64,000 bases of DNA from NCBI RefSeq assembly GCF_000165425.1, contig NW_001798957.1, forward strand, positions 1-64,000. The letters run 5' to 3'. Origin of the DNA: Paramecium tetraurelia. Its lineage: Eukaryota; Ciliophora; Oligohymenophorea; Peniculida; Parameciidae. A model generated the notes under the pieces. That model did not search any database and was not told the DNA's origin. It was given only the letters and a program-made list of their open reading frames with translations. Both the position numbers and the translations under genes were made by a program. How positions within the stretch are numbered: position 1 is the first letter of the stretch; each line of letters begins with the position of its first letter. Shown piece after piece: positions 1 to 64,000 of the stretch.

Positions 1-1860
1 TCTAGCAATAGAAAAAAATCCAGAAGATTCACATTATTTTCATAATAAAGGTTTAAGAAAATATGGATGATATTTTAGCAGCGACATTACAGAAAATGAA
101 CAGATATGAAGAAGCTTTGGATAATTATAATTTAGCAATAGAAAAAAATCCAGAAGATTCAAAATATTTTAATAATAAAGGTTTAAGAAAATATGGATGA
201 TATTTTAGCTGTGACATTACAGAAAATGAATAGACATGAAGAAGCTTTTGATAATTATAATTTAGCAATAGAAAAAAATCCAGAAGATTCAGGGTATTAT
301 TGTCAGAAAGGTTCAATTAAAAATTGTTGATATTTTAGCTATTATTCTATATAAAATGAACAGATTTGAAGAAGCTTTAGAAAATTCTAATTTAGCAATA
401 GAAAAAAATCCAGAAGTTAATTTATATTTTTCTGTAAAAGGTTTAATTATATTTGGATGATATTTTAGCTTTTATTTTACTTGCAATGAACAGATTTGGA
501 GAATCTTTAGAAAGTTGTTTTTAAACAAATTTATAGGATCCAACAAGTTATTTTATAAAGGGTACAAATACAAAATGTATGATATTTTAGCTTATACTTT
601 ACATTTAATGAACAGATTTGAAGAAGCTTTGGATAATTATAATTTAGCAATAGAAAAAACTCCAGAAGATTCAATATATTATATTGGTAAAGGTTTAAGA
701 AAATATGGATTATATTTAGCTGCGACATTACAGAAAATGAACAGATATGAAGAAGCTTTGGATAATAATAATTTAGCAATAGAAAAAAATCCAGATGATT
801 CAAATTATTTTAATAATAAAGGTTTAAGAAAATATGGATGATATTTTAGCTGTGACATTACAAAAAATGAACAGATATGAAGAAGCTTTAGAAAATTATA
901 ATCTAGCAATAGAAAAAAATCCAGAAGATTCAAGATATTTTAATAATAAAGGTTTAAGAAAATATGGATGATATTTTAGCTGTGACATTACAAAAAATGA
1001 ACAGATATGAAGAAGCTTTAGAAAATTATAATTTAGCAATAGAAAAAAATCCAGATGATTCAAGTTATTTTAATAATAAAGGTTTAAGAAAATATGGATG
1101 ATATTTTAGCTGAGACATTACAAAAAATGAACAGATATGAAGAGGCTTTAAAAAATTTAATTTTAGCAATAAAAAAAAATCCAGAAGATTCAGATATTTT
1201 AGCTAATACTCTATGTAACTTGAACAGATTTGAAGAAGCTTTAGAAAATTATAATTTTGCAATATAAAAAAATCCAGAAGATTCAAGATATTTTAATAAT
1301 AAAGGTTTAAGTAAATATGGATGATATTTTAGCTGAGACTTTACAGAAAATGAACAGACAAGAAGAGGCTTTGGAAATTTAAAATTTAGCAATAGAAAAA
1401 AATCCAGAAGATTCAGGGTATTATTGTCATAAAGGTTCAATTAAAAATTGTTGATATTTTAGCTATTATTCTATATAAAATGAACAGATTTGAAGAAGCT
1501 TTAGAAAATTCTAATTTAGCAATAGAAAAAAATCCAGAAGTTAATTTATATTTTTCTGTAAAAGGTTTAATTATAATGGATGATATTTTAGCTTTTATTT
1601 TACTAAAAATGAACAGATTTGAAGAAGCTTTGGATAATTGTGATTTAGCATTATTCAGAAATCCAATAGATTTTGGATCTTGTTTTCTAAAAGGTACAAT
1701 TAAAATCGACGATATTTTTTAGATTTTACTCTAATAAAAATGAACAGATTTGGAGAATCTTTGGAAAATTAGAATTTAGCAATAAAACACAATCCAAAAA
1801 ATTTTGACTATTGTTATACCGAAGGTCTATTAATTTATTCATTATTTTTAGAAATGATAT
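1..1860 (+). repeat. 130-bp tandem repeat (102 nt exon + 28 nt intron)
   Basis: The DNA repeats with a period of 130 bp: equivalent intron starts fall at 51, 181, 311 and 441, and again at 822, 952 and 1082. The unit is a 34-codon TPR plus one 28-nt intron. Later copies vary by 1 to 2 nt in the intron (27 or 29 nt), and one copy has lost the exon-intron junction. Neighbouring copies are nearly identical, which suggests recent unequal exchange of exon-plus-intron units. Confidence 0.9.
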
Positions 1861-11346: not shown

Positions 11347-12315
11347 TCAAAAAATCTAACAATTTTTTTAACTTGATGTTTTGTTTTATTATTAAAACTC
11401 TTTATATTCCCGAATTTATATTTGTTTCGTTTTGCTGTCCCATGTAATCAAAAAGTCTCCTCCTTCGCTCATAGTGCCAAAGATATTCCCCAACCAATTA
11501 TTAGGATAATTGAAATCGATAGCTTACTCTAATTTACCCTCAAACAATTAAGAATTGGTTTTGAATTTGATAAAATTCAAATTATAACCATTTTTGGATA
11601 ATAAAATGTTCTTTGAAGAAACAAAGAAGCATGGAAATAAATTAGCACAGAATTATCTACATCATTAAATTGGTAATTCCTGATATTTATAATATAATCC
11701 ACTCTATGTTGAATATGTATAGAGTTCAAGTTTACTACCTTACCATGGTTAAAATACAAATATGTCCTTAGATATAAATGACAATCTAACACCCTATCCT
11801 TCCAATTTTTAAACAACCTTCCATTGATGATCATCCTAACATTTTATAATGTTGATAACATCATCCTCTCCACAAGAAATTAAAGTGTTGCCTTCTTAAT
11901 TTAAAGACAACCCACAAACTGTATTTGAATGCTCTCTAATTGTTTATTTACAAATCCACTGCGCTTCCTATTAATACCAAAATTTTATATTCTTGTCTTT
12001 AGAACCACTAATTATAACCAACGGGTTTAAATTACGAAGTACTAAACATTGAATATTTGAAATGTGCTCTGATAATTTCATTAGAAACTTTGGATTGGCT
12101 TACTAGTTTTAAGACCATATTTTAATGCAAGATGATCCAGATATAAATAATGGCATTTATCTGAAGAAATTAAGGGTAGTTATCCAGGATTCATGTTTTT
12201 AAATAATTTGAATCCTTTTTAATGCCCCACTTTTGAATTGCATAGTTATGATGTTGGATTCAGCTCCCGTTATTAAAAATTTTGTATGATAATCAAAGGC
12301 AATTGCCCAACACAT
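11347..12315 (-). pseudogene. WD40 repeat protein, N-truncated, one in-frame TGA
   Basis: Minus-strand frame encoding at least five WD40 blades: CWAIAFDYHTKFLITG, then FISGSS..IKIW, VIISGSKDKNIKFW, TLISCGEDD, and a C-terminal blade with FLITWD before TGA 11349-11347. It would form a beta-propeller scaffold. The first usable ATG (12315) sits directly behind a run of nine A/T. Upstream sequence continues in another frame, so the N-terminal coiled-coil part present in relatives is lost or out of frame. One in-frame TGA near 11660 replaces a Gly of a GGG motif that the paralogue at 13604-14632 keeps. No GT-AG window was found that removes it. Likely a decaying copy. Confidence 0.6.
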
Positions 12316-13603
12316 TTTTTTTTGAATGTAAATTTGAGGAAGCAATTCATAAGTGAATTACGTTTCCTTTGATTATTCTTAAGATTATTATCTATCATTC
12401 TTATCCTTAAGCATGACAAAACAACTATTATTTTTTTAGATATTATATTAACATCAAACATTGAATAATTAGAAAATAAGTTAATTGGTTTAATAATGCT
12501 CATTTTTCATCTAACTTAATTAAATTATAAAATTTAATATTATTTAATTAAGTAAAATATCAAATGCTTAATAATTATTATACAAGCATAAAGAATTAAC
12601 CAAAATTTAACTGAGTATTAAAGCTCTAAATTTCTTTTAATCAATAAATGTTTCTAGAATTATGGCAACCCTTTACTCTACTATCATAAATATTGTGATA
12701 TATAGAAAAATCACTAAATTCGCATAAAACACCAAGATATCTAAGTTCTTCTAACAAAGTTTCAATAAAATCTAATTGAATATCCCAATTGTTAAAAATT
12801 TAATATATATATGAATAAATATATGATGTATTAAAAAAGGCTGAAAAAAATACTAATCTAGAACAGCAATATTGTAAAAAGAGTGGGAATAAACTTTAAC
12901 AATACTCTTTAATAACTGCGTAAGATTATTATTTTTTTATTAGATTATCGTTTTTGGTATAAGATAATTTCAAGGATTTCAAAACGGTAACTTTTTAATT
13001 AATTTTTTAAAAGCTTATTCTCTTAATATTTCTCACGTAAGTTAGCTTAATAAAAACATCGAGCCAGATAAGATTTCTAACATTAGTGATACTTATTAGA
13101 GAATTAAGATATGAATCATAATTTAAATTATAGGTAGATAAATGCAATAATGGTATTTTTGGTTTTTGTATATTTGAAAATATAGAAAGATAAACTCAAA
13201 TTAAGAGTGTATAAAACCCATTCTGTTGATAAGTAACAGGTTATTGTATTCATCTAAGTTTAAAATAGTTAAACGACCTGGTTTATCAGTTTAAGGAATT
13301 ATCTCAGAGTCATCAATATATAATGAAATTTATGATTATAAATTTCACTTAAATAAGCCAAGTGAGGTAATAATTCTAAATTCTCCCTCTGAATAATCTA
13401 TAAATATACAATTTTTATTATTTTATATTTTGCTCTAATGCATTTATATTGGTTTATATGATGATTTAGTTAATTGGAATTAATTTTTCATCCTTCTACT
13501 AATTGCCAATTTAGTATGGAGATGAAATTTCATTAATGAATTTACCTTCTAACACAGATACATTAGAAATCGAATATCAAAAATTAATATAAATTAATTT
13601 TAT
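12316..13603. other. AT-rich spacer with weak relic signal
   Basis: Between the two WD40 copies. The stretch about 12316-12503 continues the minus-strand WD40 gene in a shifted frame. About 13230-13603 has a plus-strand frame free of TGA, but with low-complexity, AT-driven composition. Nothing else seen. Confidence 0.35.
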
Positions 13604-14632
13604 ATGTCTGACATTAATATGTAATAGGTTAGAAAACCCTTTTCTTATGAAATAATCAGAGAAAGTACTATCAAATAAAACGAATACAGTAGTGCAATAG
13701 CAATAAGTAAGGATAATTTACTGGTTTTGGCTACTGCTGACAAGGCTATAAAAGTTTATTAACTTAAATTGGGAAAGCTTAAGCAGTTTCAACATTTAAA
13801 TATGTTTAGAAAAGATGGCACAGCAATTAGTTTATTTGAAAAATCTTCCTTGTTTATAACTGGTGCAATTGATTCAACCATTCGCATTTCTTCAACTACT
13901 TTATTCTCTTCAGCCAAATATATTTAATAATTATATGGGCATACTAGTTGGATTTCAAATTTAATTATTCACCCTGTTGATTAAGATGTTCTATTTTCAA
14001 GTTCGAATGATAGTCAAATAAGAGTATGGCAAAATATGCAGAGTTGGTGTTGTTGTTAAATAATAAAAGAGCATAAAAATGATGTGAAAGGATTATCAAT
14101 AAGTAAAACAGGTAATCAATTGCTATCTTGTTCGGAGGACTTGCAAATCTTGATTATGGAACCAGTAAGCAATAAAAATTATTTTCCTTGGCAGGTAGTC
14201 TAGAAAATAAAAGTCGATTAGTAAGGTTATCGAATATGTTCTATTGATGATAGTATATTCACATTTTAATAGGATTCATAAAATCATATGCACATCTACT
14301 CAAAAGATGAAAATGGATTGTATTGTAAAACAGGATGACTTGAAGTTGCAGGTGGTGGATAATCTTGCGATTTTTTATTTCCATCTATTTATCATTCTAG
14401 CAAATAGCTTTTGATCATTAAAAATGGATATGCGATAAACATAATACGATTCTATAAAGAACTTCCAGTAAATGACCAAAATAAATCTTAATTTCTTTTA
14501 GAATAAGTCATAGATTTTGGAAGTAATACTTATGGGCATATTTGGGGAGCATTGAGTTAAGATCAAGAATACTTGATAACATGGGATTGTGATTCACAGG
14601 AAATATAAATAAGGAAATTTTAAGAGAATTGA
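13604..14632 (+). CDS. WD40 repeat protein, frame crossed by one TGA that an apparent 27-nt intron would remove
   Basis: ATG 13604 (MSDINMQQ), then WD40 blades: LVLATADKAIKVYQ, LFITGAIDSTIRI, LFSSSNDSQIRVW, QLLSCSEDLQILI, and a last blade ending EYLITWDCDSQ before TGA 14630-14632. It is a paralogue of the minus-strand copy at 11347-12315, with matching C-termini. The only in-frame TGA is at 14336-14338. It lies inside 14325-14351, which begins GTAAAAC, ends GCAG, is 27 nt long and leaves the frame intact if removed (TTG TAT T|GT GGT GGA). The same stretch aligns with coding sequence in the paralogue, so it is either a pseudogene nonsense mutation or a newly used intron. The N-terminal half typical of relatives is absent. 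Confidence 0.6.
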
Positions 14633-61399: not shown

Positions 61400-62967
61400 A
61401 TGAAATTCGTGTTGCTGGCAATTTTCTTGTTGCTTGTATTGGCTGGAGAAGATTATTATCAATTGCTAGGATTAAAGAAGGGTGCAAGTGAAGCTGAAAT
61501 CAAGAAGGCCTTCAAGAAATAGTCTCTGAAATATCACCCAGACAAAAACAAGGGAAATGAGGAGAAGGTAATCAATTATTCTTATTTTTGTACAGGCTCA
61601 GAAATAATTCTAAAAAATAGTGAATGCCTATGAAACATTAAAAGACCCAGAGAAAAGAAAGATTTACGATTAATATGGTGAAGAGGGTGTCAATAAGCAT
61701 GAACAATAATAATAATAAGGTGGTGGAGGAACATATCAAAATTTTGGAGGTGGTTTCGAAGAAATGTTCTCATAATTCTTTAGAGGAGGCAGTGGCGGTG
61801 GTGGTGGTGGTCGCCAGCAATTTCATTTTAATTTTGGAAATCAAGGTGGTGGAGGATTTGGTAATTAAGGTGGTGGATTTGGCAATCAAGACTTCTATGA
61901 GGAAGAAGGTCAGAGAAAAAAAGAAAATCTGTTTGAAAATACAGATGTTTATACACTTGATATGAGTAATCTCTCTCGATTTTACAGAAGAGAAGAAGTT
62001 TGGCTAATATATTTCTATTTACCAAATGGTGAAGGATAGAAACATAAGAAACTTATAATTGAATTGGCTGAAAAATACGCAGGTATTTTTAGAGTCGCTG
62101 CTATTGATTGTGAAGATGATGAGGCATTGTGTGAAGATGAGTTCTCAGTCAAACGATATCCCTCTGTTTCCATTTATGCATCTCGTCTCTCTGCAGAACC
62201 AATTAAGTATAAGGGAAAGTGGGAATTAAATGAATTAGCAAAGGAGGCTGTTGATTTGATGGAAGATTTTGTTATTGTTTTAAGTGGTTTCAATTTCCAA
62301 GAGTATATTGAAAAATCAAAACCTAAAGTTATTCTATTTACCAATAAAAAATCAACACCTCCTTTGTTTAAGGCCCTTTCAAAAGAATTCAAAGGCAAAT
62401 TGGAATTTGCTATGATTAGACAATCTGAAAGACAATTGTCATAGATATTCAAGATAACAGAGTATCCGAGTTTGATAGTTGCTTAAAATGATCAAGATTT
62501 CAAATTGTTTGAATCGGAATTCAAAAAAGATTAGATTGTTAAGTTTCTGAGATAATTTGCATATGGATAGAAGAAGGAACCATAATAGAAAGTAATTTAA
62601 CAGTTGACTGGTTAAAATTATGAATAATGTATATCGAAAGGGAAGGACTTATGTTTCCTATTGTTAATATAAAATGAATTAGATTTAGAGATGATATCTA
62701 AAATACCAAGTAAATATTAAAATGAAAATATTTCATTCTATTATGGATCTCTTAAGTATTTAATTTGATCATTATAGGTAATTGGCATCCAAATTTGAAC
62801 CAAATTAGACCTCTTCATATGCTGTGATTATCAAACCAAAGCGATAAACTTATGCTGTTTAAAATTCAATAGAAACAAATGATATCATAACATTTATTGA
62901 TGATGTACTTGGCGGAGGTAGAACTTTCAACAAAATGCATTCCACTATTAGAAGAGAAGAGTTGTGA
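61400..62967 (+). CDS. ER-lumenal J-domain protein with thioredoxin-like region
   Basis: 505 residues. Signal peptide MKFVLLAIFLLLVLAGE, then a J domain (DYYQLLGLKKGASEAEIKKA, KYHPDKNKG with intact HPD), and a Gly/Phe-rich linker. Next is a thioredoxin-fold region without a CxxC pair (FRVAAIDCEDDEALC, VKRYPSVSIY), followed by a second such region with KPKVILFTNKKSTPPL. The C-terminus is RREEL, so the last four residues REEL fit the KDEL-type retrieval pattern. Introns 61568-61595 and 62756-62777, TGA 62965-62967. It resembles DNAJC16/ERdj5-like co-chaperones that feed clients to ER Hsp70 (BiP). Intact. Confidence 0.88.
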
Positions 62968-63020
62968 ATTATTTTTGTTAATTTAATTTGCTTTTATTCG
63001 TTAATTTTAACAACTAACTA

Positions 63021-64000
63021 ATGGATAACATAGTATAACATGTGGATGATGAATATAATGAAGGGAAACAGGATTCTTATCAACAACCTGAAAAACTATC
63101 AGACAATTTAGCAAGAACAGTTTTCTTTGATTCCAACAATCTTCCTTAAGTGGAATGTTACTACCATAAAGGATATTATATATCTAACATGTGTCGAGCA
63201 CCTCAATGTATAATACCCTTATGTCCTCTTTGCATACATCTTCATTCTAAGGAACATGTCAACGAAGGCACATATCCAGTATTTGAGTCATTAGAAGTCT
63301 TATTAAATCAAGCAAGTGATCATGTTAATAATGAATGTAAGCTTTAGATTATATCCTTTTAGTGAAGAAATTTACTAATTCATATTACGATATCAAAAAG
63401 CATGTGAATACTTTTGAGGTTCATGCAGATAAAACTATAAAAAAGATTAGAGAAATTAAGAAACGTATATAAGATGTCGTTGAACAATTCTTCAATGGTT
63501 TAGAGAATGAAGTCTAACATAAATAGAAGAAGAATGTGAATAATTAAGAGAGAGATGCTAAACATTTACTATCAATGATTGAAGAGAGATGGAGATCAAT
63601 GAAATAGATGTTAAATACATTTTAGAGTTCTGATTGTTTAACAGCTCTCATTCCCTATTTCACAACAACCTTTTAAGAAGACAATCATGTTTATTATAAA
63701 AAGATAGGGGAGTACATAAATGCATTTCCAACTGTCAGTAGTGAAGTCTAAATCGATTAACATAGAGCGTATTTTAATTTATATATATTAGCTCTGAGTT
63801 GAGTTTGTTTTTAGGTTCAATAATACGAGTTCAGCATACATCAATTCCTGATTTTATTGGCATTCATTAATTGCCTACTACCAATGTTACTGAAAGCACT
63901 AAAATCAATTCTCTTTAGGGTAGCAGAATCAAGGAACCATTGCGTGTCACCATCCAGGAAAAGAAAACTCAATTTGAATCTTAAGATCATCAGAAATTAC
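63021..64000 (+). CDS. B-box zinc finger protein, 5' part (runs off window)
   Basis: ATG 63021, introns 63337-63362 and 63769-63791, open to the last base. Residues about 45-85 hold a B-box-like zinc site: CYYHKGYYISNMC...QCIIPLCPLCIHLHSKEH, with the C-H, C-C and H-H spacing of that fold. A coiled coil follows (KIREIKKRIQDVVEQFF, EERWRSMKQMLNTF) in the RBCC/TRIM order, but without a RING. Many such proteins exist in Paramecium. Function unknown; the C-terminal part is outside the window. Confidence 0.75.

Follow-up and report, generated by a model that had tools for sequence, protein, structure and literature searches.

A tandem array of TPR exons in Paramecium tetraurelia, very probably multiplied together with its short intron

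A TPR gene with many predicted short introns at the start of a contig

The stretch of DNA analyzed here, hereafter the window, comprises the initial 64 kb of contig C4, which belongs to a 69-Mb, 231-contig assembly of P. tetraurelia. Positions 1-1910 of its forward strand carry the 3' portion of a TPR gene, which is read with TAA and TAG as Gln, as are the other long open frames of the window, and which ends at a TGA (1908-1910). The contig begins at position 1, so that the 5' part of the gene lies outside the window. Once 14 predicted introns are removed, a single open frame runs to the TGA. The spliced product of 505 amino acids matches Pfam TPR_1 at 1.6e-65 (214.9 bits, seven stretches), which places it among the TPR proteins, and the longest unspliced piece (461-840) matches the same family at 4e-10. 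A TPR scaffold protein is the predicted product.

A scan of 1-1950 for the pattern GT..TTAG over 20-35 nt yielded 19 candidates, 14 of which fit the repeat frame; those at 434-468, 687-719, 1558-1591, 1215-1244, and 1311-1332 were dropped, being longer or shorter alternatives or lying inside an exon. All 14 predicted introns are on the forward strand and have GT..TAG ends. Nine of them are 28 nt long and begin with GTT, namely intron 1 (51-78), which interrupts TPR position 8 in phase 1, and introns 2 (181-208), 3 (311-338), 4 (441-468), 7 (822-849), 8 (952-979), 9 (1082-1109), 10 (1305-1332), and 11 (1435-1462), the last of which is identical to intron 3. Introns 6 (693-719) and 12 (1565-1591) also begin with GTT and measure 27 nt, while introns 5 (562-590), which is preceded by a 93-nt exon, and 13 (1694-1722) are of 29 nt and begin with GTA. 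Intron 14 (1825-1851; 27 nt, GTC..TAG) lies past the last TPR and is followed by a tail exon and the TGA, its frame having been assigned by eye. With their lengths of 27-29 nt, all 14 conform to the Paramecium type of intron (20-35 nt, GT..AG). In P. tetraurelia, 99.9% of introns measure 20-35 bp, and genes have a mean of 2.3 introns (PMC5663052).

Among the 13 exons that are flanked by introns on both sides, 11 measure 102 nt, one 93 nt, and one 195 nt, and 13 of the 14 repeat cores are preceded by an intron. An earlier note on this DNA had described 14 introns of 28 nt, all in phase 1 and one per 34-residue repeat, with a period of 130 bp. Thirteen introns do occupy position 8 in phase 1, but one core has no intron; the length of 28 nt applies to nine introns, the others being of 27 nt (three) or 29 nt (two); and the spacing of the cores is 122-131 with a single value of 93, so that the period is not strict.

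The sole repeat boundary that lacks an intron is found within the 195-nt exon (1110-1304, forward strand), which is a fusion of 102 and 93 nt. The donor side was lost through a 37-bp deletion, a size worked out by hand against the neighboring units, and 10 nt of the former intron end are read as codons, for a net change of -9 nt that keeps the frame. A deletion between 9-bp GATATTTTA repeats was considered and rejected, since it would remove 36 bp and the unit needs 37. In pattern coordinates, both exon length changes are multiples of 3, and four of the 13 inner introns deviate from 28 nt by 1 nt.

Position and phase of the introns

Intron placement was assessed with a splice-aware dynamic-programming parser that used a generic TPR consensus and left introns free to fall at any codon and in any phase. 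The spliced parse of the window array scored 568, against 367 with nine frameshifts for the unspliced one and 76 for the reverse strand. With this consensus 13 introns were placed, all of them in phase 1, at TPR position 8 (six introns), 10 (four), 6 (two), and 4 (one); at three sites longer introns were taken (37, 37, and 41 nt), and the parse continued beyond the TGA with one frameshift. A second profile, trained on other arrays with the window array excluded and with intron length limited to 34 nt, placed 13 of 13 introns at position 8 in phase 1, with neither frameshifts nor stops. Over the family of arrays described below, 208 of 332 introns fell at position 8 with the generic consensus and 302 of 320 with the trained profile, and the sharpness of that position hinges on the trained profile. 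As the parser preserves the codon frame, exon lengths in multiples of 3 are built into it; the length of 102 nt is not.

The site was also found by a scan that makes no use of splice sites and is anchored on a RYEEAL-like motif. Of 146 unit pairs of the family, 128 had GT where the donor was expected, 144 had AG where the acceptor was expected, and 127 had both, the chance of finding both being about 0.0006 per unit; in the window array, both were present in 11 of 12 units. Other offsets gave 0-10 occurrences of GT and 0-8 of AG, save for 41 of AG at offset +12, and the implied intron length was 21-31 nt. Seven other TPR loci (C10, C229, C78:78k, C230, C172:222k, C76:167k, and C14:559k) gave no intron at position 8 in phase 1 over 151 good units, which indicates that the site is no artifact of the parser. 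A parser with free boundaries, allowed to remove any 20-32-nt piece and applied to 11 of the 18 arrays, returned GT or GC..AG ends in 0 of 243 cases. Although this outcome counts against the explanation proposed here, we judge the test to be over-fitted and uninformative, because such a parser makes favorable hybrid codons and scatters over positions. From the frame and the splice signals, we infer that the array introns are spliced.

A family of arrays and an intron site common to other TPR loci

A DNA search of the genome with the window array retrieved arrays on 17 further contigs, at 64-79% identity, one 51-base match apart. Three further queries returned the same 18 contigs and a short piece on C11, one of them also giving short matches on C178 and elsewhere on C14. 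The arrays thus number at least 18, since the genome searches score the best candidates only. Parsing of 18 arrays with the trained profile, from which C138:545k was excluded, gave 332 introns, including 309 at position 8 in phase 1 (core introns) distributed over 17 arrays; the 18th, at a contig end of C24, has no core introns.

The 309 core introns are 21-34 nt long with a mode at 28 nt (123 introns, the other 186 departing from it), and 52 of them have 25 nt or less. Their donors are GTA (267), GTT (26), GCA (8), GTG (7), and GTC (1), their acceptors TAG (210), AAG (62), CAG (35), and GAG (2), and 175 combine GTA with TAG, the consensus pair that accounts for 70-77% of P. tetraurelia introns (PMC5663052). 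The eight shared-site introns with GCA donors, of the GC-AG type, belong to the C173, C174, C14, C50, and C78 arrays. An in-frame TGA occurs inside 46 of 261 family introns, and 61 have a length in multiples of 3 and no TGA; with so few in-frame TGAs, degradation of unspliced RNA cannot act as a check on every family intron from within the intron itself.

Exon length was evaluated over the stretches between core introns, to which the interval counts are restricted. Of these 292 intervals, 272 contain no frameshifts or other introns, and 260 of the 272 exons measure exactly 102 nt. Several arrays, for example C158 (26 against 14) and C14 (40 against 30), have more units by the parser's rough count than introns, on account of parse wraps and array edges. 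When 11 long or oddly spliced intervals were inspected by eye, nine proved to contain the shared-site intron, and the two that did not were 1110-1304 of the window and a decayed stretch of C155; exact removal of an intron was seen in none of the 292 intervals of the family arrays. The flanking ORFs of 13 arrays settled neither a start nor a fused domain, and none of the 14 pattern matches from a viral_contigs scan for relatives was confirmed.

Beyond this family, the generic consensus was applied to 26 other TPR loci, comprising five seen earlier, C178, and 20 from the upper part of the best 150 of 950 candidates. At least three introns at position 8 in phase 1 were found in 12 of the 26, and such introns make up 119 of the 216 placed. 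A further 32 come from C24:252k and 7 from C196, two loci selected by hand; with them the proportion becomes 14 of 28, a biased rate since both were chosen for their spacing. The intron site is common to TPR families that the DNA search with the window array did not retrieve, and the pairing of exon and intron, common to the family arrays and to other TPR families, predates the window array. Altogether, 467 predicted introns (309 + 119 + 32 + 7) share one codon and one phase in a single genome.

The locus at C24:251500-256500 represents a separate TPR family, in which 29 of the 32 position-8 phase-1 introns are of 27 nt and 28 have GTT donors. Four of seven of its introns looked at by eye start with GTTGA and would, if retained, immediately present an in-frame TGA. 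GTT donors are found in 52 of 142 introns over 13 other TPR loci, most of the 52 coming from this one.

Probable copying of exon and intron as one unit

Within the window array, two stretches recur almost unchanged together with their introns. Positions 123-451 (forward strand) have a copy at 1247-1575, 329 nt long and 95.7% identical, and positions 724-1013 (forward strand) have one shifted by a single unit, at 854-1143, 290 nt long and 95.9% identical; each block spans two whole introns. The distance between exons covaries with that between their downstream introns (r=0.72, p=0.003). Such covariation reaches p<0.05, uncorrected, in nine of 16 arrays, and no significant covariation was seen in the other seven (C12, C174, C153, C76, C190, C78, and C165). 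The nearest neighbor of an exon lies in its own array for 151 of 260 exons, mostly one to three units away. Across arrays, the interiors of the 123 introns of 28 nt have a similarity of 0.478, against 0.359 for shuffled ones (maximum 0.362), a likeness that fits common descent and to which a shared intron composition may contribute.

The co-copying of exon and intron that these patterns suggest is supported for the window array, because near-identical blocks span whole introns, intron distance tracks exon distance, and 13 of 14 cores come with the matching intron. The proposal of the earlier note that the copied unit was exon plus intron is borne out by the same observations, the blocks being of 290-330 bp with two introns each at about 96% identity.

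The inherited unit is very probably a 102-nt exon with one phase-1 intron, multiplied by the copying of whole units. Its exon would extend from TPR codon 8 to the next TPR codon 8, and its intron would be about 28 nt long. Copying would have taken place in germline DNA, where units paired out of register would recombine unequally or undergo gene conversion; slippage would fit the copying step too, and crossover is what we infer. A shift by a whole unit would add or remove exon-intron pairs and keep the frame, because the units share exon length and phase, and such frame-neutral shifts would let introns multiply along with repeats and would require no intron insertion. An exon of exactly one repeat may enable germline recombination to multiply introns in the absence of an insertion mechanism. 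The notion that the array provides a natural test of how tiny introns spread is to be narrowed, as it would apply to their multiplication as passengers of repeat copying and not to insertion, of which no convincing case at a new site was noticed. The window array would be one recent wave within a larger and older set.

Other readings of the arrays

A shared position might instead reflect target preference, had introns been gained separately at an AAAG|GT-like site in TPR codons. The exon does end in AAAG at 274 of the 309 family introns, and in AAAG or AGAG at 108 of 142 introns of other loci, as such a preference would have it, but introns within an array are near-identical and track their own exons, and the window array contains block copies, all of which makes separate gains very unlikely for the arrays. 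For distant TPR families, separate gains may nevertheless lie behind the site, which may go back to one ancient gain or to an AAAG|GT preference. The 28-nt pieces might also be taken for internal eliminated sequences (IESs), removed from DNA and not from RNA. The shortest IES class is close to 28 nt; IESs are not known, however, to be as short as the 52 of the 309 introns that have 25 nt or less. The pieces are part of an assembly in which some contigs bear telomeres, they end in GT..AG at a fixed codon and not in TA, and the unit at 311-338 lacks the one TA-to-TA 28-bp alternative that was derived manually from the commonest unit. Even though IESs in three to six copies have been ascribed to the expansion or recombination of repeats such as TPR or WD40 (Arnaiz et al., 2012; PMC3464196), elimination from DNA is a highly improbable account of these pieces.

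Misassembly at a contig end, through collapsed or chimeric repeats, is a potential source of error, given that nine of the 18 arrays lie less than 600 bases from one, but the same structure is found in the C211, C190, and C138 arrays, well inside contigs, and the units differ in sequence, which leaves hardly any room for an artifact of this kind. Finally, the window array might be a pseudogene fragment or a non-coding satellite of a TPR gene. Its contig-end position, the missing 5' end, a pN/pS of 0.89, and the GTT donors would all agree with such a status, against which stand a spliced reading that passes 13 introns without stop or frameshift, two exon length changes that are both in frame, and a terminal TGA; on balance, this appears unlikely.

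State, age and genomic location of the arrays

The introns of the window array have GTT donors in 11 of 13 cases and GTA in two, against 15 GTT donors among 296 introns in the other family arrays, and in this they resemble the C24:252k locus. Elsewhere in the window, 13 of 40 predicted introns are well supported (12 GTA, 1 GTT), too few to serve as a baseline. The pN/pS ratio among the units of the window array (0.89, or 0.73 for close pairs) is tied for the highest of 17 arrays, whose range is 0.44-0.89. Its GTT donors and this ratio raise the possibility that the window copy is under weak constraint or in decay. In the commonest unit, the intron would present an in-frame TGA if retained, as judged by eye. 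The window array is probably young, weakly constrained, and, by prediction, still spliced.

Over 17 arrays, mean within-array divergence is negatively correlated with mean intron length (Spearman -0.57, p=0.017) and positively with the spread of intron length (0.62, p=0.008). With nearest-neighbor divergence, the correlation is -0.60 for mean length (p=0.011) and 0.41 for spread (p=0.10, not significant). The arrays are related to one another, which makes these p-values optimistic.

Counting those closest to a contig end, 10 of 18 arrays are located within 5 kb and 14 of 18 within 25 kb of one, where fractions of 0.033 and 0.167 would be expected (binomial 6e-11 and 2e-8), an enrichment that is inflated by repeat-induced assembly breaks. 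Some contigs of the assembly terminate in CCCAAA/CCCCAA repeats, which together with the tiny introns and the frames open under the TAA/TAG reading marks a Paramecium-like somatic genome. Telomere repeats are present on the array-near end at the starts of C76 and C50 and at the end of C165; none were found at the near ends of C4, C12, C14, C24, C78, C91, C138, C153, C155, C158, C173, and C202, and N is found at the starts of C174, C190, C211, and C138. Telomere-like repeats also occur inside C174, at about 16.7 kb (L011 6734-6850), just past a TPR array.

Relation to known exon arrays

Judged from their predicted structure, the TPR arrays are of the same kind as the LRR arrays of Tetrahymena, the genus, the domain, and the phase being new. 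The traits of a tandem exon array, i.e., exons of uniform length, a single intron in each repeat, a common intron phase, and co-copying, were all found here, and the LRR arrays likewise consist, in a ciliate, of tandem exons of exact length with one intron per repeat in a single phase (PMC6564038). Those arrays have been explained by duplication of an exon/intron unit via ectopic recombination (Xiong et al., 2019; PMC6564038). The present ones are not LRR arrays, as they are built of 102-nt TPR exons in phase 1 and those of Tetrahymena of 90-nt LRR exons in phase 2; their introns are of about 28 nt, in contrast with peaks at about 56, 122, and 257 bp for the Tetrahymena LRR arrays (PMC6564038).

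According to the same report, the youngest LRR arrays are mostly found in pericentromeric and subtelomeric germline regions, younger arrays have longer introns, and a retrotransposon is linked to the arrays (PMC6564038). The trend of length with divergence in the TPR arrays resembles the intron length cycle described there. LRR genes of P. tetraurelia are said there to have no 90-bp peak, and the authors were aware of comparable uniformity in no other eukaryote and considered it possible that genes of this kind had a single evolutionary origin (PMC6564038). Multi-copy IESs of Paramecium are comparable in that non-coding inserts of TPR genes multiplied there along with a coding repeat (Arnaiz et al., 2012; PMC3464196). 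They differ in that they are eliminated from DNA and occur in three to six copies, with no mention of constant exon length or phase in the available text of that study, whereas the inserts described here are predicted introns.

No paper on TPR exon arrays in Paramecium appeared among the open-licence papers that literature searches listed. Exon shuffling reportedly proceeds by symmetrical exons, a principle attributed to Patthy. As in the window array, tandem duplication of a 1-1 symmetrical exon preserves the frame. In animal repeats, exon junctions are enriched in inter-domain linkers (Björklund et al., 2006; PMC1553488), whereas the tiny intron considered here lies inside the TPR, at codon 8.

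A broader reading, on which our judgment is evenly divided, is that exon arrays evolved independently in another ciliate genus and from a different kind of repeat protein, that one ancestral TPR exon-intron unit founded many TPR genes, and that repeated waves, often near chromosome ends, multiplied one intron hundreds of times, its length drifting down with age. A second case of exon arrays, differing in repeat protein and phase and having tiny introns, would suggest that germline recombination offers a general route to intron multiplication. The 467 predicted intron copies, of varied age, would lend themselves to measuring donor drift (GTA, GTT, GCA), length drift, and loss.

Other features of the loci

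Cys/His-rich stretches lie N-terminal to the TPR arrays of C178 and C212 and resemble B-box zinc fingers; a similar stretch is present in a window ORF at 62904-63365. The window also contains two ORFs with WD40-like repeats, recognized by eye, at 11662-12453 on the reverse strand and 13526-14338 on the forward strand.
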